Source: Selenomonadaceae bacterium
GTDB taxonomy: Bacteria > Bacillota > Negativicutes > Selenomonadales > Selenomonadaceae
Reading direction: 5' to 3'
Assembly (NCBI GenBank): GCA_017455645.1
Contig: JAFSZS010000227.1
Location: 1 to 33,696 of the forward strand
Length of the DNA: 33,696 nucleotides
In this document: positions 19 to 23,423 of the stretch, piece after piece
How the letters are laid out: the number at the start of each line of letters is the position of its first letter
Numbering within the stretch: the stretch's first letter is position 1
The notes under the pieces: generated by a model
Told to the model about the DNA's origin: nothing
Databases searched by the model: none
What the model saw: only the letters and a program-made list of their open reading frames with translations
Program-made: the position numbers and the translations under genes

Positions 19-2082
19 TTAAATATCAAAATTTTTATTTGCCATAATACCTCGCTTTTTATTTGGCATTGCACTTGATTTATTTGAAGATATAATTTTT
101 TCAGTGCGTTCAATCGTAATTACGGGTACAAGCCATTCTTCCAAAGTCGCCCCGCCGTGAATTTCATTGCCTGCCCCGCCTTGCTGAATAAATCTTGAAT
201 AATCCGCAAAAATTATTTTGTCATTCTGCTCAATAAAATTGGAAAATTTTTCTTTGTCGCCGGATAGAGAATTTGCAAATCTGCCGCCATAAAAAACTTC
301 GCGGGCTTTGCTTTCAAAATTTTTATCAAATTTTGTTTTTCTGACCAAAACTGCCAGTCTACTCGCTCCATGATCCGCACTGACAATTATTTTTTTGTAA
401 TTTTTTAACGTAGTTAAAATTTTTTCTTTCAACGCAGATAAAAAATTCAATTCCGCCAAAATATTTTCAGGATATTTTTTTGTTGAATGCTTAATTTTAT
501 CAAGGTCAAGAATTTCTGCGGCAATATTTTTATCATTCAAAAAATCTTTGTTATATTCGGTAATTGAAGGCAAATTACAATAACCGAATTGGTATTTGAT
601 TGTAAAATTTTTGAACTCCGGCGAGGAAAAAATTCTTGCCAAAAAATTTAAGTATTCGACTCCCAGCGCGTCCACAAAAAAAATTGCCGCGTCTTCAAAA
701 TATTCTTCTGCAACAAGCTGATTTCTGGACTTAAGCGAATAGATATTTTGGCTGTTGTTTTCGGCAATTTCATTCACCAAATTATAAAAATCCTCGCTCA
801 ATATATTCGTAACTTTCAACCAACGGTATTTGCGAAAGTAAGCTCTTTGTTCTGTAGAAAAAATTCCATTTGAATCCGACAAATAATTTGCCAAAGCAGG
901 GAAATTTTTTTGTAAAACTGCAACGACTTCATCATAATTTGTAAATTTAAATTTTCGTATTACTTCAAAGAATAAAATTTTTTCGTTTACAGAAGTATCG
1001 GTTAAAATTTTTAACGCCAACTTTTTATCTGCTTGACGAATTTTATCAACAAATTTTTCAGGGAGTGAAACTTGCAGACAAGATAAAATTTCGCGGCGTT
1101 CGTCATAAACTTTGGAAAAATTCTTGTTGCTGTCAAAAATTTGTATGTAAATCTGTTCAATCCAATTTTTGGGCGAATCAGATTTTTTTGCACAACTATC
1201 AGCATAAAAATTTTCATTCCCAATTTTACACCAGAGCCACAAAAGCCAACGTTGAAAATTTTCCTGCAAATGGAAATTACTAAACAAACTCGGCTTGAAA
1301 GAATCTGTATTCAGTTCATAACGAAAAGCTTTTTCAAGGTTGCCGGTTTTGGTAACAGATACAGCCAATTTTTCCCAATCTTCACGGCTTCCAAAATTTT
1401 TTTCCAATTCTACCGGCAAATTGTAATGATAACGCAACAAGCTGAAGGCATCGGAAATAACTTTAACATCGTCGAAAAATTTTTGATCTTGCAGATAAAT
1501 TGCGTTGTTTGTGTAGACGTGCAAAGACTCTTTCGGCTTTTCTTCCCAATACTTTAAATAATTTTTAAAGCCGTCAGCCCGCGTTCCTTGTAATTTTAAA
1601 TTCAAAGATTTTTGAATGATCGTCAGCGAATAATTGTTTTCTTCTGCCGTATCCAACAAAATTATGCAGTTTTTTTTTCGCACGTCATAAATTTCCAAAG
1701 ATTTAAGAACGCTTTTCAGGCGGTACATCAGAAAATAGATTCTGAAATTTGTTGGCTCTTGAAAAAATGAATTTAAAATTTTCTTAATTTCAGATTCAGC
1801 AATTTCAGGGCGCACGCGCAAAAATTCTGACAGCGGCAAAACGCAACAATTTTTAGTTTCATTTTTCAACGCGGTATAAAATCGCTTTAAATTTGGCATG
1901 GTATCTTCAGCCGAGCAAAATTCTGACAAAAAAATAAACTTCTCAGTCGCCAAAAAATTTTTCACTTCGTGCCACATTGAAATTGAATCCACGTTTATAA
2001 ATCTAACGGGGCTTAAAGTCTTTTGTTTTTTATCCTGCGTCAAATTTTTTTTCAGTTCCTCAAGATTTTTGAAGACAATCAT
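19..2082 (-). CDS. pglZ: PglZ-family protein of a BREX type 4-like system
   Basis: A 687-aa protein whose C-terminal half carries the alkaline-phosphatase-like PglZ fold. The first metal-site strand is FFVDALG (about 468-474), followed by SADHGAS (about 568-574) and the family ending IHGGATLEEWLVPV (about 641-654). The N-terminal half has no motif I recognise. PglZ is the shared core protein of BREX and Pgl phage-defence systems; its exact activity there is unsettled, though members of the fold hydrolyse phosphoester bonds. The ATG start has GAGGGCG five bases upstream, inside the end of the brxC-like gene, so the two are probably translated together. It is the last operon gene seen; only 18 bases remain before the window edge, so a following brxL would be outside the window. 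Confidence 0.85.
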   Translation of the reverse strand: MIVFKNLEELKKNLTQDKKQKTLSPVRFINVDSISMWHEVKNFLATEKFIFLSEFCSAEDTMPNLKRFYTALKNETKNCCVLPLSEFLRVRPEIAESEIKKILNSFFQEPTNFRIYFLMYRLKSVLKSLEIYDVRKKNCIILLDTAEENNYSLTIIQKSLNLKLQGTRADGFKNYLKYWEEKPKESLHVYTNNAIYLQDQKFFDDVKVISDAFSLLRYHYNLPVELEKNFGSREDWEKLAVSVTKTGNLEKAFRYELNTDSFKPSLFSNFHLQENFQRWLLWLWCKIGNENFYADSCAKKSDSPKNWIEQIYIQIFDSNKNFSKVYDERREILSCLQVSLPEKFVDKIRQADKKLALKILTDTSVNEKILFFEVIRKFKFTNYDEVVAVLQKNFPALANYLSDSNGIFSTEQRAYFRKYRWLKVTNILSEDFYNLVNEIAENNSQNIYSLKSRNQLVAEEYFEDAAIFFVDALGVEYLNFLARIFSSPEFKNFTIKYQFGYCNLPSITEYNKDFLNDKNIAAEILDLDKIKHSTKKYPENILAELNFLSALKEKILTTLKNYKKIIVSADHGASRLAVLVRKTKFDKNFESKAREVFYGGRFANSLSGDKEKFSNFIEQNDKIIFADYSRFIQQGGAGNEIHGGATLEEWLVPVITIERTEKIISSNKSSAMPNKKRGIMANKNFDI

Positions 2083-2092
2083 TTTTTCGCCC

Positions 2093-5000
2093 TCAAGAAT
2101 TCTTCAAGACTCTTATGCCCAGCAAAACATCTTTTTTTATAAGTTCTTCAAGATATTTTTGAGCTTGTTCTGCGGAAAGTTCATGGATTTTTTTCTGAAC
2201 TTGAGTAATAAAATATTTGTGATAGTTGTTTTGAGCGTAGGCTTCGATTTTATTTTTGCAATTATATTTTTCATCGTACCAATTATAAACATTGTCTCCG
2301 CTCTTTTCCTGCAGAATTTTTCGCAAATCATTAGCTTGCAAAACCGGTGAATATTCTCCGCCAAAAAAATTTACAAAAGCTTTTTCGCAAGAATTTTTAT
2401 CTTGCAGACATTTTAATTTATCGCTCTGGATAAAATTTAAAGCAGTTTCAATTTCATTTTCAGATAAATTTTGTGAATTTCTATTAAGCGCGGAAAAAAT
2501 ATTTTGTGCCTCTCGCAAACAATCTTGAAACATACAAAGTATCGGAATTTTATTTTGATTAGACCAATCTGCAGGCGATTTTGTGCCGGTAACTTCCTGC
2601 CACATTAGAAAAATTTTTTGAATTTTTTCGTTGCGTCGAATATTTTGTAAAAATTGTTTCACCTGTAAAATAAAATCGTCCTTAGTTTTGAAAAAATTTC
2701 CTGCAGGGGCATTTAAGAATAAATTTGAGACAGTTTTATCATCAAGGCTGCTGTCAACATATTTTCTGATTGCGGCGGCAAAAGTGGCAGATTGTTTTTC
2801 AAAAAAATCTTTGAAAGTATCGGCAGAAATTTTTATCTGAATTGCCATTTGTTCGGGATTTTTTAAGCTACTACTTTGTAATGCTTGAAAAACTTGGAAA
2901 AAATTTTTTAAATCGCTTTGAAATTCTTCGACAATCGCACGTGGAATTTTTATTCTGTTAAGCTTATCTCTTAAAGATTCACGGGCGTCGAAAATTTTTT
3001 TTTGCGGAGTTGCAAGGATAGAATTTATCGCCTCAATCAAAAGTAATTCTTCATAAAGTCTATCAATCTGCTTGTTAAGGTCGTCAACTTTCCAAAGGTA
3101 CGCCGAGTCGGCAGAAAGTTTTTCATTTAGTCGTGAAAGATATTCCGGTTCGGTTAATTTTAATCTGCCGAAAATTTGAATGAGTTCAGGTTTGTATTCT
3201 GCAATGTAATAATTCATTCCGGATTTAAAATTATTTGATTGCACAAGATTTTTCAATTCGCTTACAACAGCAAGATTTTTCTTATAAATCAAATAAATAT
3301 CTTCAGCAATTTTCGTTTTTTCACGCGCCGTGACAGTTCGTGGGTTAATAAATTCTTCCATCAAGTCTATAAAATGCAAAATTTCTTCTTTGTAATCACT
3401 GACGCTGTATTTTTCTTCAGCATAATATTTGAGCGACCAAACTGGATAATAATTTTGAGTAAGGCGCAAATTTACACTTTTGGCTATATCGTCAATCGAA
3501 CTTCTATTACTTTCAGGTATATTAAAAATTTCTCCGGTGACTTTGCAAAATAAAATGTGTTCAGGAGTTTGCTTAACAATAAATTGATCTGTTTGCAGAG
3601 TTTCTTTAATGGCACTTACAATCAAATTGCTGATTTTGTCCGCTGTCAAGCTGTAAGTATTATTATTCACGTCACGAATATAAAAATTGCTGTCCACGTA
3701 TTCTTTCAGCAAAATTGCCAAAAGATACGCCGCGCCAATCGAACGTATTAAACCTACAGGCGGCTTTTTCAGAGTCTGCCAGATTTCGGCAAAACGCACT
3801 GAATTATTTTTTTCAAAACCGTATCCAATAATTTCTTCAACGATTTTTTTCATTTTGGAAATTGTACTGGAAGGATTATTCAGCCAATAATTTTTATCAT
3901 TGCGCCCGTCAATTTCCTTGAAAGCATTTTCTATACCGATTAAATAGTTATAACTGCCGGGAATTTTTTCTGTGCCGAGCGCGTATTTTGCAACCTTATC
4001 TTGAAAGCCTTGGGGTGAAAAAAGCTTATCATTCATAGAAATTTCTTCAAGCCCGCAACCATAAAATTTTCTGTTCAGCTCTTCAAGTTGACGGACTAAA
4101 TTTATTGCACCCGAAAAGACGTTTGATTCAGTAGCCGAACTGTAAACGCGGTAAGTTGTAATATCAAGTTGCCTGTTCCATTCTTCCACCAAGTCATTTG
4201 CAGTTTTTCCGGCGAGCGTCATTTGTTCACGTTGGTTTGGAATTTCTCTAAAATAAAGTTCCTTCGCCTTGTTTTGAACAAATTTTTCGTAACGTTGCTT
4301 TGTAAAAGGCGTTCCCGAAAAATCTACAACAACGCAACGCGAAGGAAATTTTTCATAAATTTTTGCTATAGTTTGATTTATTTTGCCTTGCTCTTCTTCG
4401 TCTGCCGCAAACAAATAAAACGCCAAAATTTGATTATCTGCAAGGCTTAAATCTTCATGGCTTGCAGACAAATATTTTTTAGGCGAAATGAATTTTATTT
4501 TGTAGCGATATTTCAAGAAGTTTGAAGGATAAAAACTTTTGGCAACCTTTAAATTTTCGTCGGTAATGATTGTGTCAAAAGTGCGTTCGTGCTTAACTTT
4601 TTCAAGCAATTTTTCCATTCGTTCATTGTCAACTTGAGCGGTTGCCATAACATAATAAATATCGTCTGATTGTTGAATTGCCGTAACAATTCCCTTGCTT
4701 GCGAAAATATTTAAAATCTGTCGAACGTCATTTTCAAAACTCGTACCAACAAAACAAGCGCAAATATTTTTCAAAGACGCACGCAAAAGCGAAGTCGCGC
4801 CGCCTGATCTGCTGTAAACTGTACTTTGCAAGGCAAATAAAGTCAACGTAGCTTTTAAGACACTCCGCTGATTTTCATTTTCGCAAATTTCGGCAAAATT
4901 ATTGTAGTAGGCTATTGCCTCTTGAAAAGTTTTATCCAAGTCGGGATTATCTAAATGAAAGAAATAATCCCACAAAAAATTAACCGTCAAGTAATCGCCG

Positions 5001-6280
5001 CGCCAACCTTCAACGCCGTAATTATTTATAAACCATTTGAAATTTCTGTGTTCTTCGTCGTCTTCAGAATAATTGGCGCACAAAAATTGAAACATTGTAC
5101 GCTGATTGGAGCTGATTTGTTGCGAAATAAATTTTAACAAATACGCCGCGTAAGGATGAATCGGCAAAAGTTTTTTCATATCTGCAGGCTGAATTGTAGT
5201 ATCACGTTTCATTATAAAATCGGCGGCTTCGCGTTTGACAATTTCCCAAAGTTCCCTTGAAAAATGCTCCCAATCATTCTTCATATCAGGTTCAACGCCT
5301 ACAGCTTGCGCCATTAACTGAAACGCCGTACTTTCAGCCAAAGTTATAGTACAAAGTTTAAAACGCGCCTCAATAATTTTTCGTTGTACTGAATCTGTGA
5401 TAAGTTGGTTGGCGTCGCTGTGCGTAATTAGGAAAAAATAAAAGCTCAATTCGGCGGACGCCTGCGCGATTTCCTGCAAGCCGGTAATGTTGTTCAAATT
5501 ATTTTTAAAGTACTCGGTGAACTCGTCCCAAATAAAAAAAATTGCGTAAAGCTTATTTTTCTCGCGTACATCTTTAAGCCAATCGATAACGTCATTAATG
5601 GTCATTGCCCAATTATAGGATTCTTTTTCAGCAACGGCGGTAATTTGTTCCAGCAGGTTAATTTTTTCTTCATCGTCCAAAGTCTTCAAATCGTAAATAA
5701 CTTCTTCCGGCGAAGTGTATTCTGAAAAATTGCCGCGATGCTTTTTAAAAGCCGAACGAAAATTAAAAGTTGCCTCGTCATCTGTCAGCGTGTCAAAAAC
5801 TTTGTCCATAATGCTTGCACTGCCCATATATTTATAGCCTTTTTCACGCAAGGAACGTTTGACACTTTCAACAATTACATTAAAAAGTTTATTCTGCGAA
5901 GTTATACCGGCGGACGAACTTTGATGCACAACTAAAATATCGCCTTTGGAACGAACACCGACCAGCCGCGCCCACAAAGAATTTAATTGTTCATTGTGCT
6001 GAAAGTATTTTTCGACGTTTGAGAGGTCGTCTTCAAAAATATGTTTGATAACAAACGAGGCGAAAGTTTTTCCAGTGCCGTAACTGCCATACATCCAAAT
6101 AGGGCGATTTTTCATATTTGAAGATTTTTCCAAAGTTTCAATCGCCGATGTTAGAACTTTTTTAAAACTCTCGTGCGGATAAAATGACTTCCATTTATTG
6201 GGGATTGTTCTATCACTACTTGCAGAAAAAACCGGCACAAAATCTGATTCAAGCTGCAAAAATTCTTTGTAAAGTTTCAA
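2093..6280 (-). CDS. brxC: Large P-loop ATPase, BrxC/PglY-like
   Basis: A protein of about 1,395 aa. From the chosen start it has a Walker A motif GSYGTGKT (about 65-72) and a Walker B-like strand FFIWDE (about 248-253). The remainder is mostly helical with no motif I can name. The size, the single N-terminal ATPase and its place between a PAPS reductase gene and pglZ fit the BrxC/PglY ATPase of BREX type 4. The frame opens at a GTG (6289), but that GTG overlaps the only Shine-Dalgarno sequence. TTG at 6280 sits six bases after GAGGTG and gives MKLYKEFLQLE, so I prefer it. The stop is 10 bases before pglZ, and the start lies 15 bases after the brxP stop. The assignment rests on motifs and context, not alignment. 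Confidence 0.8.
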   Translation of the reverse strand: MKLYKEFLQLESDFVPVFSASSDRTIPNKWKSFYPHESFKKVLTSAIETLEKSSNMKNRPIWMYGSYGTGKTFASFVIKHIFEDDLSNVEKYFQHNEQLNSLWARLVGVRSKGDILVVHQSSSAGITSQNKLFNVIVESVKRSLREKGYKYMGSASIMDKVFDTLTDDEATFNFRSAFKKHRGNFSEYTSPEEVIYDLKTLDDEEKINLLEQITAVAEKESYNWAMTINDVIDWLKDVREKNKLYAIFFIWDEFTEYFKNNLNNITGLQEIAQASAELSFYFFLITHSDANQLITDSVQRKIIEARFKLCTITLAESTAFQLMAQAVGVEPDMKNDWEHFSRELWEIVKREAADFIMKRDTTIQPADMKKLLPIHPYAAYLLKFISQQISSNQRTMFQFLCANYSEDDEEHRNFKWFINNYGVEGWRGDYLTVNFLWDYFFHLDNPDLDKTFQEAIAYYNNFAEICENENQRSVLKATLTLFALQSTVYSRSGGATSLLRASLKNICACFVGTSFENDVRQILNIFASKGIVTAIQQSDDIYYVMATAQVDNERMEKLLEKVKHERTFDTIITDENLKVAKSFYPSNFLKYRYKIKFISPKKYLSASHEDLSLADNQILAFYLFAADEEEQGKINQTIAKIYEKFPSRCVVVDFSGTPFTKQRYEKFVQNKAKELYFREIPNQREQMTLAGKTANDLVEEWNRQLDITTYRVYSSATESNVFSGAINLVRQLEELNRKFYGCGLEEISMNDKLFSPQGFQDKVAKYALGTEKIPGSYNYLIGIENAFKEIDGRNDKNYWLNNPSSTISKMKKIVEEIIGYGFEKNNSVRFAEIWQTLKKPPVGLIRSIGAAYLLAILLKEYVDSNFYIRDVNNNTYSLTADKISNLIVSAIKETLQTDQFIVKQTPEHILFCKVTGEIFNIPESNRSSIDDIAKSVNLRLTQNYYPVWSLKYYAEEKYSVSDYKEEILHFIDLMEEFINPRTVTAREKTKIAEDIYLIYKKNLAVVSELKNLVQSNNFKSGMNYYIAEYKPELIQIFGRLKLTEPEYLSRLNEKLSADSAYLWKVDDLNKQIDRLYEELLLIEAINSILATPQKKIFDARESLRDKLNRIKIPRAIVEEFQSDLKNFFQVFQALQSSSLKNPEQMAIQIKISADTFKDFFEKQSATFAAAIRKYVDSSLDDKTVSNLFLNAPAGNFFKTKDDFILQVKQFLQNIRRNEKIQKIFLMWQEVTGTKSPADWSNQNKIPILCMFQDCLREAQNIFSALNRNSQNLSENEIETALNFIQSDKLKCLQDKNSCEKAFVNFFGGEYSPVLQANDLRKILQEKSGDNVYNWYDEKYNCKNKIEAYAQNNYHKYFITQVQKKIHELSAEQAQKYLEELIKKDVLLGIRVLKNS

Positions 6281-6295
6281 ATTGTCCACCTCGTA

Positions 6296-8659
6296 CTAAA
6301 AAAGCTCCACAATATCGCCGGAAATTTTTTCACGGTTCAAAAAAATATTTTCTTGAATACCCTTGTAAAAATCCACTTTTATAAAATCTGAATAATCATT
6401 CGCCAAGCCAACAAGCATTGGACGCAAAATTTTTTCTTCAATACCGAATAAAATTTTTGGACTCAACGCTTCGCGCTCTTCGTTATCTTCAAGTAAATCT
6501 GTTAAAGTAAAGCTGTAAAGCCCGTCCGCGTGTTCCGCAAATTGATAAAGGCTGTACAAAATTACCAACGGTTCAGGATTTTTCCACGCTGTCCGCGTAA
6601 TTGAAACTACTTGCCGACCTTTCAAGTTGCAAATTCCTTGTCCAATTTCTTCACCAATGGGCGAAGATTTAAACATATCTTTTAAAGATTTTACTCCATT
6701 AAGCCGAGTTCTTTCGCTAAGTGAATTTCCAAGCATATTCATTAAAAAATTACTATCACAATCAAAATTAAAAGCTGTCTTTCTGACAAACAAACTGACG
6801 AGCGGCGAATTATAAGCCATATTAACCCAAAAAATTCCCCACAATTTCAAGTTATCTGTACCGAGTTCAGAAATCTTTTCAAAATTACTTGACGGTTTTT
6901 TATTTTCGTCAATCAAACAAATTTCCCTGCCCCAATTCTTAAAACTCTCAAACATTTTGGAGCCCATTCTGCTATTTGGATCATTTTTTTTGGCATATTC
7001 CCAAAATTTTTCGGGATTTTCAAAATAAATTTTTATCCAATCAAGACGTAAGCCAAAAGTGTTATATCTGTCAATTCGTTTAATTTCCACGTCGTTATAA
7101 CCTCCAATAGCAGTTGAGCGAGCTATCCAACAACCTCTTTGCATTTCCAAACATTTATGACAATGCACACAATTTTTTATTGAAATGTCATTATCTGTAA
7201 TATTTAAAGCCCCGTTAGGACATTCTATCATACAAACGCGACAATTTTTACAATAAGCCGATTTATTTAAAACATTTCTAAACAGCGAAAAAAATTTTAT
7301 TGTTTCCTTAGTTTTAACAGGTTCGGAAAATGTAAAAACTTCTTCGCCTTCAGAATTTTCAACAGTAAAAATAAAAGATTCTGCGCCATACTGAATTAAA
7401 TATTTATTTTCCGCAATCTCAAAAAAATTGCCCAATGCAGGCAACCATTTTTTCCAAGAATAATTTGCATTTTTTAAGGTAAATTTTCGCTGTGAATTTT
7501 CATCGACAGCAATAACTTTATCTTCACCTTGCCTAAGATATTTTCCGCTACCTCTTATTTTCCAACCAAGCGAATTGAAATAATCTTTCCATTCGTCTTC
7601 ATTTGTAAAACCTTTATTTATTTGGCTTTTAATAATTGAAATGAACGGCGCAATTTCTTCATGGAAAATATGATTTTGTATGCAATCACTCCAAATTGAA
7701 GACATAGGGCATAATTTACAGCCAACTCTATGCAAGCCGATTCTGTAAGAATTATTCAGCGGCAAATTTTCAAAAAAATAATACAAAAATAATTCTGAGG
7801 TATTCCATTTTCTGATAGGATAAAAATTTATTTGTGCGTTATGCTTTACTCCTTCGGAAATTTCGCCATATGTTGAACGATTAGCACTTTCTAAATTGCG
7901 AATACCTAAAAAAGCCAACGCCTTAAAATTTTTTATATCTTGAATGGAACGTTTGCGGCGCGTAGCCAAAATTTCTTTTACCTTGAAAAGCGAAGGCGCG
8001 GACTTATGAACCGAACAACACCAGCGAATTTTTCGCGCAGGCGGTCCCATAAACTGCCAAGACTCCAGAGCCTCAAAAGGAGCTTTTGCCGTGTGCCAAT
8101 TTAATTTATTGTAGCGCAGTTTTGTTTCTTCAACAGTTTTGTAAGTGTCTTGCAATTCCATTGAAGTATCGCCGAAAATTACTTCAAAGGCGTCGTAAGG
8201 AAGGGCGCGTTGCACCAAATCAAGCATAACGAGAGAATCTTTGCCGCCGCTGAAGGCAACGTAAAAAATATCGACTTTGTTTTTGTACGCCTTGAAAGTT
8301 TTGTAAATATCTTTTAAAGTGCGCTGAATTAATCCGTTCATAAAACTTTCGTTCTTTGCAAGCATAGCTTTAATATCGACGGGCTTTAAGGATAAATTCG
8401 GCACAACATTTTTAAGCGTCGGTAATTCAAACAAATTGCCGCCTTGAGTTTCGGCTACAAGTTCTCCGCGATAAAAGTACTTGCGACCTTCAGCCCAACA
8501 AAGCGGCTCAATCGATTCTGGAAAATTCCAGCCAAAATTTTTATCAAGTTGCAAAAATTTCAATTCCTCAAAAAAAACCGGGCGAATTTCATTTTGTGAT
8601 TTATTTTCAGTAACAAGATTGTAGCCGCCGGTTTCTTTGTCCCATTCATAAGCGTACAC
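6296..8659 (-). CDS. brxP: PAPS reductase / iron-sulfur fusion protein, BrxP-like
   Basis: A 787-aa protein. An N-terminal segment is followed by a PP-loop nucleotide site SGGKDS (about 137-142) typical of the PAPS reductase/DndC superfamily. The WCC and GCKLCP cysteines (about 214-215 and 314-317) could hold an iron-sulfur cluster as in related thiolation enzymes. A ferredoxin-like double cysteine motif follows, CKNCRVCMIEC and CVHCHKC (about 470-503). The C-terminal 240 residues resemble DUF4007, a domain found beside phosphorothioation and BREX genes; this is recalled, not computed. BrxP is the signature protein of type 4 BREX. The frame is open from a TTG at 8677, but GTG at 8659 has AGAGGA seven bases upstream and gives VYAYEWDKETGG, the usual beginning of this family. 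Sulfur chemistry on DNA or nucleotides is an inference. Confidence 0.85.
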   Translation of the reverse strand: MYAYEWDKETGGYNLVTENKSQNEIRPVFFEELKFLQLDKNFGWNFPESIEPLCWAEGRKYFYRGELVAETQGGNLFELPTLKNVVPNLSLKPVDIKAMLAKNESFMNGLIQRTLKDIYKTFKAYKNKVDIFYVAFSGGKDSLVMLDLVQRALPYDAFEVIFGDTSMELQDTYKTVEETKLRYNKLNWHTAKAPFEALESWQFMGPPARKIRWCCSVHKSAPSLFKVKEILATRRKRSIQDIKNFKALAFLGIRNLESANRSTYGEISEGVKHNAQINFYPIRKWNTSELFLYYFFENLPLNNSYRIGLHRVGCKLCPMSSIWSDCIQNHIFHEEIAPFISIIKSQINKGFTNEDEWKDYFNSLGWKIRGSGKYLRQGEDKVIAVDENSQRKFTLKNANYSWKKWLPALGNFFEIAENKYLIQYGAESFIFTVENSEGEEVFTFSEPVKTKETIKFFSLFRNVLNKSAYCKNCRVCMIECPNGALNITDNDISIKNCVHCHKCLEMQRGCWIARSTAIGGYNDVEIKRIDRYNTFGLRLDWIKIYFENPEKFWEYAKKNDPNSRMGSKMFESFKNWGREICLIDENKKPSSNFEKISELGTDNLKLWGIFWVNMAYNSPLVSLFVRKTAFNFDCDSNFLMNMLGNSLSERTRLNGVKSLKDMFKSSPIGEEIGQGICNLKGRQVVSITRTAWKNPEPLVILYSLYQFAEHADGLYSFTLTDLLEDNEEREALSPKILFGIEEKILRPMLVGLANDYSDFIKVDFYKGIQENIFLNREKISGDIVELF

Positions 8660-8681
8660 ACAAAAAAATCCTCTCAAAAAT

Positions 8682-11219
8682 TTATTTCAAGTGAATTTTA
8701 TCATATTCGTCAATAGCTTTGGGCAATTTTTTATGTGCCAATCCCTTATCCTTAAGCCAATTTAAAATTTCGTCTTTATTTTGAAATGGATCGCGCTCCT
8801 GTTCTTCAATCAAAATTTTAAGGCAAAAAGAATTAAAATCATCTTCAGCAAAATTTTCTGAAACAAAAACGGCTGTAGAAAATTCGCCTGCAGTTGAAAA
8901 GGAGTGTAAAATTTTAAAATTATCTGCTGAAAGTTTAACAATACTTTCAAGCAAAAAACTATTCCACGAAACCTCAAGGCGCGGCAACCATTCAAAATCA
9001 GGAAAAGTTTTTGCAGACTGCCAGCCGCCGTTGCGTTCCATTGCCAATTTTACATTTTCAACAACCGCCTCAATAATTTCATCAGTAATACCGATTGATT
9101 CGGGTCGACGCAAATAAAATTCATCAACGCGAATAAATTCTGGATTCAAATTTTCAATTAAGGTACTTTTTGAAAGATATTTTATTCCCTGCTCTTCACA
9201 CAAATTTAAAATATCTTCAATTTCAACTTCAGCCCTGTCTTCAATGTATTGCAACAAAATTTTTTTATTGGTAATGCCGGCTATATTTGTAGTCGAAATG
9301 TACGGACGCGAAAAATTGAATTTTTTGCCAAACATATATTTTAAAATTCCAAAAAGCTTTTCGGCATCTTCAATTTTATTTCTGTATAAAAAATCTTGAA
9401 AACGCTCCCAAAACAAATTGTACAAATAACGCGAACTTGCAGGCTTATTTTCGCAGATATTTTGTAAAAATTTTTCAATTTCAGCTGATTCATCTTCTTG
9501 CAAGTTAAGCCGCGTTGAGTGCAAATATTTTCCTTTGCCAATGCAGATAATTTCGGGACAACGTTGCAACAACATTCCAATATTGTGAACTTGAAAAGAA
9601 ATAAATTCAGCCTTAATTTCTTGCGTTGAAACTTCGCCGTTTTTGGCAACAAAATTATTGAATTCCGCTGCCAAATTTAAATCTGCATTTTTCGTAAGAC
9701 AATCTCTGGAAAGAGTGTAAGGGGAACCGCAATATTTTATTGCGCCCTGCAAAATATATTGATTGGTAATTTGCGTGCCGACGAAATTTTCTTTCAGTGC
9801 AGTAAAAATTTCCTTGTAAGGCAAAACTGTACGCTCGGATTTTTCGATATAGTCATTTATCAATAAAATAATTTTTTGCGGAACGTGCAAAAAGTCGGGA
9901 TGCATATATTTTCCGCGACCGCACAACACACCTATTCTGCTTAATATTGCGTCTAAAGCACGTTGCGAAATTGCGTTCTCATAACCAAAAATTTCACGCA
10001 AATAGCGAACAAATCTGTTGTAATGCGTTTCGTCAGCAATTTTGTAGCCGCTCTGAAATATTTCTCTTAAAATGTAACCGCATTGAAATCTCAAAGTTAA
10101 AAATCCTCTGTAAAAAAATTTCCCGCTGTGTTTGTAAATCTGTAAAATTTTTAGTCTCAATAATTCTTCAGAGCAATTTTTCTCTTTAACAATTTGGTTA
10201 ATTTCTTCTTGTAATTCAGATTCACTCAAAATTTTTGGCAAACTATCAATCAATTTATCATAATCAATCATTTTTTTGTTTGCTGTAAAAATAATCGTAT
10301 TTGTTGCCGCGTCAAAACAAAAAACTTTTTTATCTGAAGCAATCTTAGAAATGAAAAACCATAGGGTTTTTGTCGAATCTTCGCCTATAAAATTTTTTAA
10401 ATCTTCAAATGTGACAAAATTTTTTTCGCCAAGCAGTTCACAAACAGAATCAAAAAATTTTTTTAATTTGAGCCCGCTATATTGTGAAAAATTTTTAATG
10501 GCACTATTTTCAATTTGGCGAACTCTTTCACGTGTAATGTTAAGCTCTTTTCCAATTTCTTTCAAAGTTTTACCTACTACGCGCCCGGCAATAATGGCAA
10601 TTTGCTTTTTATTTTTCAAGACAGAACATACCATTTCTTCAGCAAAATTTTTCAAACTGTCTTTATCAAGCAATTCAGGAGTTTCAAAATTTTTTTTGGA
10701 CTCTTCAGGCGTAGTACGAGCAACGCACATAGATTTTAAAAAAATTTTTTCAAGAACTTTAATTACATTGTCAATAGACCCCCTGCCAAAATTTTTTAAT
10801 GCTGAAAGTTCAGGTACAGAATAATTAAGCAATTCACCCAATGTAAAACAATTTTCTCTTTTCAGCAAATTTTGAACGCGGTTATTAAAAGGTAATTCCG
10901 TTACCAAAATATTTTTGTAAGGCTCAAGAGCAACGATATTAAAAATTTCCCGCAAAGTTTGAATTGTTTTGCTATCAGTCTTTTCAGCAAATAAATCAAA
11001 TTCAGATTCATCGAACAAATTTATTTCAGCTGACTTAGAAGCTACAATTTTTTTTATATTTTCAATTTCTTCGCGAGAAGCAAAATATTTTGCACGATAA
11101 GCAATAAAATCCGCCTCGCTTAATTCATCGACAAAAATTTTTCCGGCGTCAGTACAATACTCCAGAAAAGTTTGATATTTGTCTTTAAATTTTGTTGTGA
11201 TTAAAATCCTTTTACTCAT
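8682..11219 (-). CDS. 845-aa protein with RNAP alpha-CTD-like and sigma region 4-like domains
   Basis: First gene of the BREX-like operon, with a good AGAAGGGA site six bases before its ATG. Residues about 103-160 look like the helix-hairpin-helix C-terminal domain of RNA polymerase alpha (TLGELLNYSVPELSALKNFG). Residues about 204-245 look like a sigma-70 region 4 helix-turn-helix (TLKEIGKELNITRERVRQIE). Further on, two segments end in the same pattern, GRGKYMH (434-440) and GKGKYLH (561-567), suggesting repeated winged-helix units. No catalytic motif is visible. It probably binds DNA and could regulate the operon or recognise DNA for the system. It is much longer than any sigma factor or alpha subunit, so it is not a normal transcription subunit. 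The family name is unknown to me. Confidence 0.75.
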   Translation of the reverse strand: MSKRILITTKFKDKYQTFLEYCTDAGKIFVDELSEADFIAYRAKYFASREEIENIKKIVASKSAEINLFDESEFDLFAEKTDSKTIQTLREIFNIVALEPYKNILVTELPFNNRVQNLLKRENCFTLGELLNYSVPELSALKNFGRGSIDNVIKVLEKIFLKSMCVARTTPEESKKNFETPELLDKDSLKNFAEEMVCSVLKNKKQIAIIAGRVVGKTLKEIGKELNITRERVRQIENSAIKNFSQYSGLKLKKFFDSVCELLGEKNFVTFEDLKNFIGEDSTKTLWFFISKIASDKKVFCFDAATNTIIFTANKKMIDYDKLIDSLPKILSESELQEEINQIVKEKNCSEELLRLKILQIYKHSGKFFYRGFLTLRFQCGYILREIFQSGYKIADETHYNRFVRYLREIFGYENAISQRALDAILSRIGVLCGRGKYMHPDFLHVPQKIILLINDYIEKSERTVLPYKEIFTALKENFVGTQITNQYILQGAIKYCGSPYTLSRDCLTKNADLNLAAEFNNFVAKNGEVSTQEIKAEFISFQVHNIGMLLQRCPEIICIGKGKYLHSTRLNLQEDESAEIEKFLQNICENKPASSRYLYNLFWERFQDFLYRNKIEDAEKLFGILKYMFGKKFNFSRPYISTTNIAGITNKKILLQYIEDRAEVEIEDILNLCEEQGIKYLSKSTLIENLNPEFIRVDEFYLRRPESIGITDEIIEAVVENVKLAMERNGGWQSAKTFPDFEWLPRLEVSWNSFLLESIVKLSADNFKILHSFSTAGEFSTAVFVSENFAEDDFNSFCLKILIEEQERDPFQNKDEILNWLKDKGLAHKKLPKAIDEYDKIHLK

Positions 11220-11335: not shown

Positions 11336-11372
11336 AAAAAGATTATCGACTTTTTATCGACAATCTTTTTAA
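11336..11372 (-). terminator. Intrinsic terminator after the small membrane protein gene
   Basis: Read on the minus strand, GAUUGUCGA and UCGAUAAUC pair over nine positions, one of them G-U. The loop is UAAAAAG, and a run of U follows. On the plus strand the same position is an A-C mismatch, so the minus strand is favoured. It closes the transcript of the 11382-11858 gene and separates it from the BREX-like operon downstream. Confidence 0.75.
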
Positions 11373-17310: not shown

Positions 17311-18990
17311 CTATAACGCTTGATTGATTTTTGCGGCAATTAATTTTTTGCGTTCAGTTAGAAATTTTTTGAAATTGCTTATTATCCAAGTGTTGCTGTC
17401 TTCCGGTATCAAGTGCAATGAAAGATATTCTTGCTGATTTTCTACTTGAGGCAACCATTTATTTAAAGTTTTGTCATTTTTTTTACTGTTATCTGAAGAA
17501 CTTAGTCGCTCCAAATTTGCAATGCTGTTAATTTCTTCGATTGTAAATTTGCCCATTTCTTTTAATTTTGCCTTAGGTTGAATGTGGTCTGCAACCCTGC
17601 GCGAAGAAAGGTTTCCGTCATACATAAGATAAAGCATATATTCTTGGTCGGGGTCAAAATCGTCAAGGTTTTTTTCTTTGACAGTGGAATAAAATTTGTG
17701 AAGATTTTTTATGCAAACGTTAAAAAGCTCCTCTGCCGGAAAAACTTTGCCCTGAAATTTTTCTAATTCTTTGTGCAGCTCTTTTATACCTTTTTCAGAA
17801 GGAGTCCAGCCGCAACCGCGCCGCCAAATTCCATTCAGCCACGAAAGTTTCAACCATTTTTTCATATTGGAAAAATTTTCAGCGGATTTTTCGACAACGT
17901 CCAGCGGATGAATACTGTTGCGCTCCGAAAAATAAAAAATATGGTACGCCAAAAGATACAGCGAAATTGGCGAACGATTTTTATTGCTTGCAAACCAATT
18001 ATAATCGCCGCTTTTTTGCAAAAAAATTCTCAGTGCCTGCAAAGTTTGTTTTATACGGTCGGAATTTTTTATTGCAAAATTAGATTCGTCGCCGCTTAAA
18101 TTTGCAATATCTTTTAAAGGTCTGCCTGTAAGTGTCAATAAGATTTTTACAATTTTATCGCCGTCCAAATTAATATCTTTGTTTTCTTCAACAATATCAT
18201 CAAGAAAATTTTCCATTCGATAATCGAAGCCTTTTAATTTTGAAGCAACAAGGTCAAGTGTAGAAAGTCTCATCCCTTCACTATTGAGTCGCCGGAAAAG
18301 TTCAACCATCCATTGGCGATTTTCAGTAACATCTTTTGAAGTGTCAAATTTTACTTTTGAAATTCCAATGGTTTTATCGTTAAAAATTCTTTGATAAAAA
18401 TGTTGAATATTACGTTCAACACGTCGAGTAAGTTTAATTTTTTCAGTATCTTTAATGTCAAATTCAGCGTTTATTTTGTCTGCAACTTTGCCGCTGTCGT
18501 TTGTTTCGGACAAAAAAACATATAATTTAGCTACGCTGTACCAAAAATTTTCTGAAGGTACAAAAGATTTTTCCTTTCCGGGCTTCAAAAATTTGAATTC
18601 ATATTCATTTGATTCAAAATCGCTGAAAAGGTCAAAATATAAATTTTTGCCTTCCCAAGTGCCGTAAATCCCTATGTAAAAAGTTTGAAGGCGTTGTTGT
18701 CCGTCGATAACAAAAAACTGTTTGTGCTGTAATTGTTGAACTTCTTCAGAATTTTGCGGGGTGCCATCATTTGAAAATTTACGGAATGCAAAAAGCGGCT
18801 CTGCATGTTTGTCTTCTTCCAAGCCAATTATTGCACCAAAAGAATATCCTTTAAATAAGCTGTTAAAAAGTAGCTCCATTTTTTCGTCGTCCCAAACAAA
18901 TCTGCGTTGAATTACCGGCAATACAAATAAGTTTTCGTCGTGAATCAATGTAACTACTTCTTTGACGGTTTTATTTTCCCAATCTTCCAT
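17311..18990 (-). CDS. DUF262/HNH protein, GmrSD-like probable defence nuclease
   Basis: A 559-aa protein. The N-terminal DUF262 domain has VIQRRFVW (about 26-33) and the ParB-like signature VIDGQQRLQT (about 94-103). The C-terminus has an HNH pattern: ADHIQPKAKL (about 467-476), then IANLERLSSSDNSKK (about 490-504). This is the single-chain layout of GmrSD/BrxU-type modification-dependent enzymes, known to restrict phage DNA with modified bases. The longer middle has no named motif. AGGAGG precedes the ATG at good spacing. It is a single-gene transcript between unrelated housekeeping operons, which suggests acquisition. Some DUF262 proteins have other roles, so restriction is an inference. 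Confidence 0.8.
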   Translation of the reverse strand: MEDWENKTVKEVVTLIHDENLFVLPVIQRRFVWDDEKMELLFNSLFKGYSFGAIIGLEEDKHAEPLFAFRKFSNDGTPQNSEEVQQLQHKQFFVIDGQQRLQTFYIGIYGTWEGKNLYFDLFSDFESNEYEFKFLKPGKEKSFVPSENFWYSVAKLYVFLSETNDSGKVADKINAEFDIKDTEKIKLTRRVERNIQHFYQRIFNDKTIGISKVKFDTSKDVTENRQWMVELFRRLNSEGMRLSTLDLVASKLKGFDYRMENFLDDIVEENKDINLDGDKIVKILLTLTGRPLKDIANLSGDESNFAIKNSDRIKQTLQALRIFLQKSGDYNWFASNKNRSPISLYLLAYHIFYFSERNSIHPLDVVEKSAENFSNMKKWLKLSWLNGIWRRGCGWTPSEKGIKELHKELEKFQGKVFPAEELFNVCIKNLHKFYSTVKEKNLDDFDPDQEYMLYLMYDGNLSSRRVADHIQPKAKLKEMGKFTIEEINSIANLERLSSSDNSKKNDKTLNKWLPQVENQQEYLSLHLIPEDSNTWIISNFKKFLTERKKLIAAKINQAL

Positions 18991-21931: not shown

Positions 21932-22472
21932 AATAATTTTGGTTACGGGCGGCGCACGCTCCGGAAAAAGTACATTCGCCGAAAAATTGGCGTTGAAACT
22001 CGGCAACGGGCGCGCGGCTTACATTGCAACCGCTCAAATTTTTGATGATGAAATGGCGCAGCGCGTCAAAGTTCACAAGTCGCGCAGATTTAATAACTGG
22101 GCAAATTTTGAAGCTCCCTTCGACGCAGATAAAATTTTTCCAACTGTAACTGAAAATGTTATTCTGTTCGACTGCGTCACAATGTACCTTACAAATTGGT
22201 TGCTTACCAAAAATCTTGACGCCAAAAATATTTTTACCGAATTTGAAATTTTTATAGAAAAACTTATAACCGCCGCTGAAAAATCCTGCGCGACGGTTAT
22301 TTTTGTGTCAAATGAAGTTGGCGCGGGAATTGTACCGGAAAATAAATTGGCAAGAATTTTTAGGGATTTCGCAGGGCTTGCCAATCAGAAAATCGCCGCT
22401 CATTCTGAAAAAGTTTTTTTAGTTACTGCGGGAATTGCCGTCGATATTAAAAAATTTGCAGAAAGGATTTAA
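21924..22472 (+). CDS. cobU: Adenosylcobinamide kinase / cobinamide-phosphate guanylyltransferase
   Basis: Activates cobinamide in the nucleotide-loop stage of vitamin B12 synthesis or salvage. The 182-aa protein has P-loop GGARSGKS, the catalytic histidine region VKVHKSRRFNNW, FDCVTMYLTNWL and the ending VSNEVGAGIVPENKLAR. Length and motifs are complete. It overlaps gmhB and is followed after three bases by the orphan MmeI-like fragment. No other cob gene is in the window. Confidence 0.93.
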   Translation: MAEIILVTGGARSGKSTFAEKLALKLGNGRAAYIATAQIFDDEMAQRVKVHKSRRFNNWANFEAPFDADKIFPTVTENVILFDCVTMYLTNWLLTKNLDAKNIFTEFEIFIEKLITAAEKSCATVIFVSNEVGAGIVPENKLARIFRDFAGLANQKIAAHSEKVFLVTAGIAVDIKKFAERI

Positions 22473-22475
22473 ATT

Positions 22476-23423
22476 ATGCCGCAATACAATTCAGAAAATC
22501 CTTACATAATTACAAAATTTCCCGGCGAATATTTCATTGACGAAACGCAAAGATTTACAGTGCCGAAAATGATTTATGGCAGTAAACCTACCGACGGCGG
22601 CAATTTAATTATCGAGGCTGACGAATACGAAAATTTTATTGCAAAAGAGCCGCTCGCCAAAAAATATATCCGCCGCTATATTGGTGCTGAAGAATTTTTA
22701 TATAACAAATTGCGCTATTGCCTTTGGCTGAAAGATTGCCCGCCCGACGAATTGCGAAAAATGAAATTTGTTTATGAGCGCGTTAAAAATGTTCGTGAAT
22801 TTCGTTTGCAAAGTCAAAAAACTGCAACTCGTAAATCTGCAGAAAAGCCTACACTTTTTCAAGAAATAAGACAGCCCGACAGCGATTATATTTGTGTACC
22901 CGCCGTAAGCGGTGAAAGTCGCCGATATATTCCTATGGCTTGGGTAAATAAAAATGTTATCGCCGGTAATGCCGTTCAATGTATACCAAATGCAACTTTG
23001 TGGCTTTTTGGGCAACTTGAAAGTATTGTTCATATGGCGTGGATGCATGCGGTTAGCGGGCGATTGGGAATAAGTTACAGATATTCGGCGCAGATAACAT
23101 ACAATAATTTTGTATTTATAAATGCAGACAAAAAACGGCTTGCAAGAATTGAAAAAGCGGCGCAAAAAATTTTGGACGCGCGGGCGAAATTTCCAAATGC
23201 AAGCCTTGCAGATTTATATGATGAAGTATCAATGCCGTATGAACTGCGCGAGGCGCACGCCGAAAACGACGCGGCAGTAATGGACGCCTACGGTTACCCG
23301 CCGAATTTTACAGAATTGCAAATTGTAACAGATTTATTTTACCGCTACGAAGCAATGATAACGCAAATACCGGAATCAATGATAGCGGCTACAAGTCGAA
23401 GAAATTTTTCTGAAAATATTTAG
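22476..23423 (+). CDS. Free-standing C-terminal part of an MmeI-like restriction-modification enzyme
   Basis: The 315 residues match, from memory, the last third of MmeI-family fused nuclease-methyltransferases: the target-recognition domain and C-terminal cap. Recognisable stretches are FTVPKMIYGSKPTDGGNL, YIRRYIGAEEFL, FQEIRQPDSDYICVPAVS, RRYIPMAW, VHMAWMHAVSGRLG and ILDARAKFPNASLADLYD. Full-length enzymes are about 900 aa. The nuclease, the SAM motif and the NPPY catalytic motif are absent, so it cannot cut or methylate alone. It nevertheless has an intact frame, an ATG and a GAAAGGA site, three bases after the cobU stop. Its stop overlaps that of the convergent AraC gene by a few bases. 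It may be a remnant or a specificity subunit. Confidence 0.8.
   Translation: MPQYNSENPYIITKFPGEYFIDETQRFTVPKMIYGSKPTDGGNLIIEADEYENFIAKEPLAKKYIRRYIGAEEFLYNKLRYCLWLKDCPPDELRKMKFVYERVKNVREFRLQSQKTATRKSAEKPTLFQEIRQPDSDYICVPAVSGESRRYIPMAWVNKNVIAGNAVQCIPNATLWLFGQLESIVHMAWMHAVSGRLGISYRYSAQITYNNFVFINADKKRLARIEKAAQKILDARAKFPNASLADLYDEVSMPYELREAHAENDAAVMDAYGYPPNFTELQIVTDLFYRYEAMITQIPESMIAATSRRNFSENI

Follow-up and report, generated by a model that had tools for sequence, protein, structure and literature searches.

Comparison with described systems

Type 4 BREX is described as carrying a phosphorothioation apparatus where the methyltransferase would be, and its components are given as BrxC, a PAPS reductase, DUF4007, BrxL and PglZ, with a cysteine desulfurase as a possible sixth (PMC12839542). 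Phosphorothioate DNA is known to be made by three gene families, one of which is brxPCZL of this type (PMC11931770). At the upstream end of several kinds of defence operon, the DNA-binding WYL regulators BrxR and CapW are encoded (PMC9122601).

The window, meaning the whole 33,696-nucleotide stretch analysed, is an entire contig (C169) that starts at window base 1 according to the assembly record. The source assembly has 2.3 Mb in 247 contigs and is 81% complete with 4.3% contamination. Relatives in the same genus are MAGs of Selenomonadaceae, and several come from rumen and gut samples. Four head-to-tail genes occupy positions 19-11219 of the minus strand in the order orfA-brxP-brxC-pglZ (ORF list), with intergenic gaps of 4 nt (orfA-brxP), 6 nt (brxP-brxC) and 10 nt (brxC-pglZ):

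8682-11219, minus strand: orfA, 845 aa, opening the operon; carries an alpha-CTD, a sigma-70 region 4 and a winged-helix-like array
6296-8677, minus strand: brxP, 793 aa; PAPS-reductase-like PP-loop enzyme, ferredoxin and SspB/DUF4007-like domain
2093-6289, minus strand: brxC, 1398 aa; AAA ATPase of the BrxC/PglY family
19-2082, minus strand: pglZ, 687 aa; BREX-4 PglZ, phosphatase-superfamily protein
1-18, strand not applicable: contig end; the expected position of brxL falls beyond it

All four ORFs are full length, and curated models (NCBIfam, PADLOC) name three of the four type 4 core genes, namely PglZ, BrxP and BrxC. The sequence-only reading had placed a PglZ, a large P-loop ATPase and a PAPS-reductase/ferredoxin protein in one tight, methyltransferase-free operon resembling BREX type 4. 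This was confirmed by the gaps of 4-10 nt and by the BREX model matches, from PADLOC for the ATPase and BrxP and from NCBIfam for PglZ. A methyltransferase, whose presence would have counted against the reading, had no model match in any of the four operon genes (PADLOC, Pfam, NCBIfam). The type 4 identity was upheld by the models for three of four core genes, by the brxL that follows pglZ in relatives and by another BREX-4 operon, complete with brxL, elsewhere in the assembly. Positions 19-11219 are very probably a BREX type 4 anti-phage operon with a sulfur mechanism.

The operon shares with published type 4 systems the same three core genes in order, the lack of a methyltransferase and a BrxP with PAPS-reductase, ferredoxin and DUF4007/SspB parts (PMC12839542), and differs in the additional first gene orfA and in that no brxL is visible on this contig. 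It resembles the Ssp system (SspBCD) in that BrxP has SspD-like and SspB-like domains and BrxC has SspC matches. It departs from that system in the fusion of the SspB part to the reductase, in having a PglZ, and in a BREX gene set in place of separate sspB, sspC and sspD genes without a PglZ. The operon is a known system with known chemistry, and what is new is orfA and the split into two subtypes.

Elsewhere in the window, a gene for a GmrSD-type (DUF262) restriction protein of 559 aa was found at 17311-18990 (E 3.7e-25), and the remnant of an MmeI-like type IIG enzyme, with only the target-recognition and C-terminal domains, at 22317-23297. The remnant lies 11 kb from the operon and aligns only to residues 607-900 of the enzyme, past most of the methyltransferase domain. 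Near one subtype-A BREX-4 operon, on the opposite strand, apparent genes for a very-short-patch-like nuclease and a C5-methyltransferase were noted by eye in the translations (L198:3489-4632).

BrxC, PglZ and the probable sulfur chemistry of BrxP

BrxC was matched by PADLOC model PDLC02485 (E 7e-112, residues 7-1395) and also, more weakly, by PADLOC SspC models, and these latter matches tie it to phosphorothioate systems. Its Walker A (GSYGTGKT) and Walker B (WDEF) residues are conserved among 29 sequences. PglZ was matched by NCBIfam BREX_PglZ_4 (NF033445) at 390.9 bits against a cut-off of 140 (E 1e-116), and D471, T508, D570, H571 and H642 are conserved in the alignment. Catalytic or conserved residues are thus kept in all three BREX genes, brxP included.

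BrxP matched PADLOC PDLC02510 over 785 residues (8-792, E 6e-232) and was divided as follows:

7709-8353, minus strand: PAPS-reductase-like PP-loop domain, about residues 109-323 (Pfam PAPS_reduct, 7.5e-23)
7130-7264, minus strand: ferredoxin segment with eight cysteines, 2 x [4Fe-4S] type, from cysteine conservation
6299-7102, minus strand: SspB/DUF4007-like C-terminal domain, residues 526-793 (VIA-align)

In an alignment of 48 sequences, the SGGKDS motif (143-148), C220 and C221, C320 and C323, and the ferredoxin cysteines C476, C479, C482, C486, C503, C506, C509 and C516 were invariant or nearly so. The structural model of BrxP has a mean pLDDT of 72.6, with its C-terminal third mostly at 80-94. 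Residues of about 109-323 of this model matched PAPS reductase folds with a Z of 12, and residues 526-793 matched SspB (6juf) with a Z of 19.1 over 252 aligned residues at an rmsd of 3.3 (VIA-align). Pfam DUF4007 gave no match in the window BrxP and matched two relatives (L073 and L078) weakly, below cut-off; the question of whether the domain is present was resolved by the structure comparison to SspB. As modeled, BrxP unites in one chain a sulfurtransferase resembling SspD, a ferredoxin and a part resembling SspB.

From the intact PP-loop, the eight ferredoxin cysteines and the SspB-like fold, the best reading is that this organism would mark its own DNA with sulfur. The sulfur chemistry of the sequence-only reading is supported by the SGGKDS PP-loop, the conserved cysteines and the SspB-like C-terminal domain; the idea of a sulfur mark is sound and is not new, as phosphorothioate synthesis by BREX-4 brxPCZL is already published (PMC11931770, PMC12839542).

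Five other loci (L182 and L184-L187) encode PAPS-reductase proteins with a ferredoxin region and without the SspB part, and at L182 a separate DUF4007 gene follows the PAPS-reductase gene (E 9e-70). These are therefore Ssp-like or intermediate systems.

Domains of OrfA

OrfA matched no BREX model (PADLOC, NCBIfam). Pfam detected RNA_pol_A_CTD (1e-10) and Sigma70_r4 (9e-9), and the AlphaFold2 model, with a mean pLDDT of 84.4, was divided into three parts:

10737-10934, minus strand: alpha-CTD-like domain, residues 96-161 (VIA-align and residue columns)
10482-10670, minus strand: sigma-70 region 4-like domain, residues 184-246, with recognition helix TRERVRQIE
8706-10472, minus strand: winged-helix-like array, residues 250-838 (Foldseek and VIA-align matches, conservation)

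In RNA polymerase, the alpha-CTD reads UP elements and sigma region 4 reads the -35 box, these being the two promoter-reading parts of the enzyme. The alpha-CTD-like domain superimposed, at residues 99-161, on the RNA polymerase alpha-CTD with a Z of 10.3 and an rmsd of 1.5 over 63 aligned residues (VIA-align), and its R114, N117, G145 and S148 are mostly kept across homologues. We take these to be the equivalents of R265, N268, G296 and S299 of E. coli alpha, which is consistent with the alignments. The sigma-like domain matched sigma-A region 4 at residues 183-246 (Z 8.4, VIA-align). It could also be aligned to the region 4 of sigma factors with solved structures, and R230, E231, R232, R234 and Q235 of its recognition helix are conserved in most homologues. 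These presumably correspond to the -35-reading residues R584, E585, R586, R588 and Q589 of E. coli sigma-70, again consistent with the alignments. The array (residues 250-838) structurally matched the SelB winged helices, UFL1 and many winged-helix proteins at middling Z (Foldseek, VIA-align). It contains the motifs TNxYxLQG (from residue 485) and WNSFLLES (from residue 752), and in the homologue alignment it is the best-conserved part of OrfA by identity, above the promoter-reading domains.

Two candidate identities were rejected. OrfA is not a true sigma-70 factor, as Pfam detected region 4 and did not find regions 2 and 3, whereas true sigma neighbours show regions 1.1-4; an origin from phage or plasmid was discarded as no match was found in viral contigs or plasmids.

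Three further described proteins were compared with OrfA. Like BrxR and CapW, it is a DNA-binding-type protein encoded at the upstream end of a defence operon, but it has an alpha-CTD, sigma region 4 and a winged-helix array, and no WYL domain was matched (Pfam, NCBIfam). Like PglW of type 2 BREX (PMC12839542), it has winged helices after an alpha-CTD-like domain, but it carries sigma region 4, and neither the kinase that marks PglW nor a nuclease was matched (Pfam, NCBIfam). With MzaA of the MZA system it shares the presence of a sigma-like protein in a defence operon, but the PADLOC match spans 41 residues of region 4 only, and the score against full-length MzaA was 33.3 bits with an equivalog cut-off of 800 (NCBIfam).

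First genes of the two BREX-4 subtypes

In a survey of 66 genomes of the genus, BrxP splits into two groups. OrfA is encoded just upstream of brxP in 12/12 loci of the window-like group (subtype A), two of which are decayed, and it also precedes brxP in Sporomusa acidovorans, two Clostridia MAGs and Flexilinea flocculi (Chloroflexota). In the other subtype a homologue of a different and shorter gene, orf458 (458 aa), lies directly upstream at 21 of the 24 loci examined. Among these is the second BREX-4 operon of the source assembly, which is complete with orf458, brxP, brxC, pglZ, brxL and a cysteine desulfurase (G000:C46, L004, 1505-13976), and whose BrxP is 37% identical to that of the window. 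The two operons are likely from the same cell, the 4.3% assembly contamination leaving room for doubt.

Compared by hhalign, the orf458 family and OrfA's C-terminal half share an alignment of 433 columns (probability 98.7, E 1.9e-16), and the orf458-type first gene showed no alpha-CTD or sigma domain. On the BrxP tree, the OrfA and orf458 labels need 2 changes each, which was reached in 0/500 shuffles, a result to which near-copies contribute.

In other sampled Bacillota, the stretch before brxP was read at 14 loci with strong BrxP matches (E below 1e-200). The first gene encoded OrfA at two, an OrfA-like protein at one, an orf458-like protein at three, a complete sigma-70 at one, a HARE-HTH protein at one, a protein related by eye to the HARE-HTH one at one, and none of these at the remaining five. 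A complete accessory sigma-70 gene lies about 28 nt before brxP at L174:2527-4008 and L183:2978-4423, the latter being additional to the 14 loci and having a broken brxP, and the housekeeping RpoD is located elsewhere in both genomes. The HARE-HTH protein that opens one BREX-4 locus has 535 aa (L178:2956-4563); the protein related to it by eye has 463 aa and no Pfam match (L181:2611-4002). In an archaeal plasmid BREX-4, an XRE regulator and an ImmA/IrrE protease stand upstream in the place of OrfA. Since neither this plasmid nor five of the sampled Bacillota loci have a recognisable first gene of the OrfA kind, OrfA is not universal in BREX-4.

Outside BREX, one OrfA homologue (L062) stands directly before the gene of an unrelated MmeI-like type IIG restriction enzyme and overlaps it; others are found beside helicases (L064, L065, L074) or alone. 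Most homologues, in Bacillota, Chloroflexota and Spirochaetota alike, keep the alpha-CTD together with sigma region 4. The literature searched contained no description of OrfA or orf458 as a BREX component. OrfA as the first BREX-4 gene is a new element, orfA not being among the published type 4 components found.

Role of OrfA

On present evidence OrfA may control transcription of the operon, a role that we favour while holding it at about even confidence. In its favour, the -35-reading residues (RERxRQ) and the alpha-CTD residue equivalents are conserved, orfA comes first in the operon, unrelated restriction genes neighbour some homologues, and sigma factors precede other BREX-4 operons. Against a controller, OrfA is far larger than usual regulators, the array rather than the promoter-reading domains is most conserved, and no clear operator or strong promoter was found upstream. 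The region before orfA contains one feature:

11338-11368, minus strand: A+T-rich inverted repeat and then a T run, located before orfA; read from the sequence, this is probably where transcription of the preceding gene terminates

This repeat was not listed by the minus-strand terminator scan, the minus-strand promoter scan upstream of orfA found no promoter, and no operator was identified in the window leader. As for an operator common to the copies, several Selenomonadaceae ones share a leader with a TATAGT-like -10, which the window leader does not show.

The main rival, which we consider possible and clearly less probable, is that OrfA is a DNA-scanning or target-selection subunit comparable to BrxA or to PglW in its C-terminal half; the array of OrfA would then track DNA and aid BrxP and BrxC in choosing or checking sites. 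This would fit the winged-helix array being both the most conserved part and the part held in common with the first gene of the other subtype, which lacks the alpha-CTD and sigma domains, and it would fit the way in which the type of first gene follows the BrxP clades. PglW, described as having three wHTH modules after an alpha-CTD-like domain (PMC12839542), points the same way. However, BrxP already has an SspB/DUF4007-like domain, OrfA homologues occur alone and beside MmeI-like or helicase genes, for which a subunit of this kind should be superfluous, and a scanning role offers no obvious reason for conserving the -35-reading residues of sigma region 4.

The expected brxL gene

The contig stops 18 nt past the pglZ stop codon, and the brxL of the window copy is not readable because the contig begins at window base 1. 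It is expected just past the contig end on the basis of relatives: brxL directly follows pglZ in five same-genus subtype-A operons whose contigs continue (L056, L058, L060, L061, L063) and also in a Clostridia locus (L068), S. acidovorans (L073) and F. flocculi (L078). In the nearest relative (G023), a cysteine desulfurase follows brxL.

The operon would be read differently if it were a decayed or incomplete BREX copy without brxL, no longer active and retained in a cell that also has the complete second operon. The sole BrxL match in the whole assembly lies on contig C46, inside that other operon; some relatives have broken copies (L046, L052, L054), and two operons (L135, L136) have no brxL after pglZ. 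This reading was nevertheless deemed improbable, as all four ORFs are full length, the BREX genes retain their conserved catalytic residues, the assembly is 81% complete and the contig breaks exactly at the expected brxL position.

Proposed mechanism and significance

In the mechanism proposed here, BrxP and the ATPase BrxC would put phosphorothioate on host DNA, with the sulfur probably supplied by a cysteine desulfurase, and PglZ, together with the BrxL expected past the contig end, would block unmarked phage DNA. OrfA would bind the operon's own promoter region through its alpha-CTD and sigma region 4 and so control transcription, a BrxR-like role filled by a different protein.

Both promoter-reading domains are known phage targets on RNA polymerase, with AsiA acting on sigma region 4 and ADP-ribosylation on the alpha-CTD. 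It is conceivable, and highly improbable, that in BREX-4 systems of this lineage OrfA does not simply control the operon but serves as a sensor: by mimicking RNA polymerase it would detect phage takeover of host transcription, or read phage promoters, and switch the phosphorothioate defence on. About as improbable is a decoy or guard that imitates RNA polymerase surfaces and switches the system on by contact with a phage factor: its two imitated domains are such targets and are retained together in most homologues from Bacillota, Chloroflexota and Spirochaetota, but plain promoter binding explains the conserved DNA-contacting residues, and we know of no phage partner of OrfA.

Few studies deal with type 4 BREX, and our literature search showed no description of how it is regulated. 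Both BREX-4 subtypes occur in one assembly, with a distinct version of the first gene in each. OrfA, conserved between Bacillota and Chloroflexota and uniting the -35-reading helix of a sigma factor with an alpha-CTD, would add a first gene to the published type 4 set and is a concrete, easily tested candidate for how type 4 BREX is switched or targeted.
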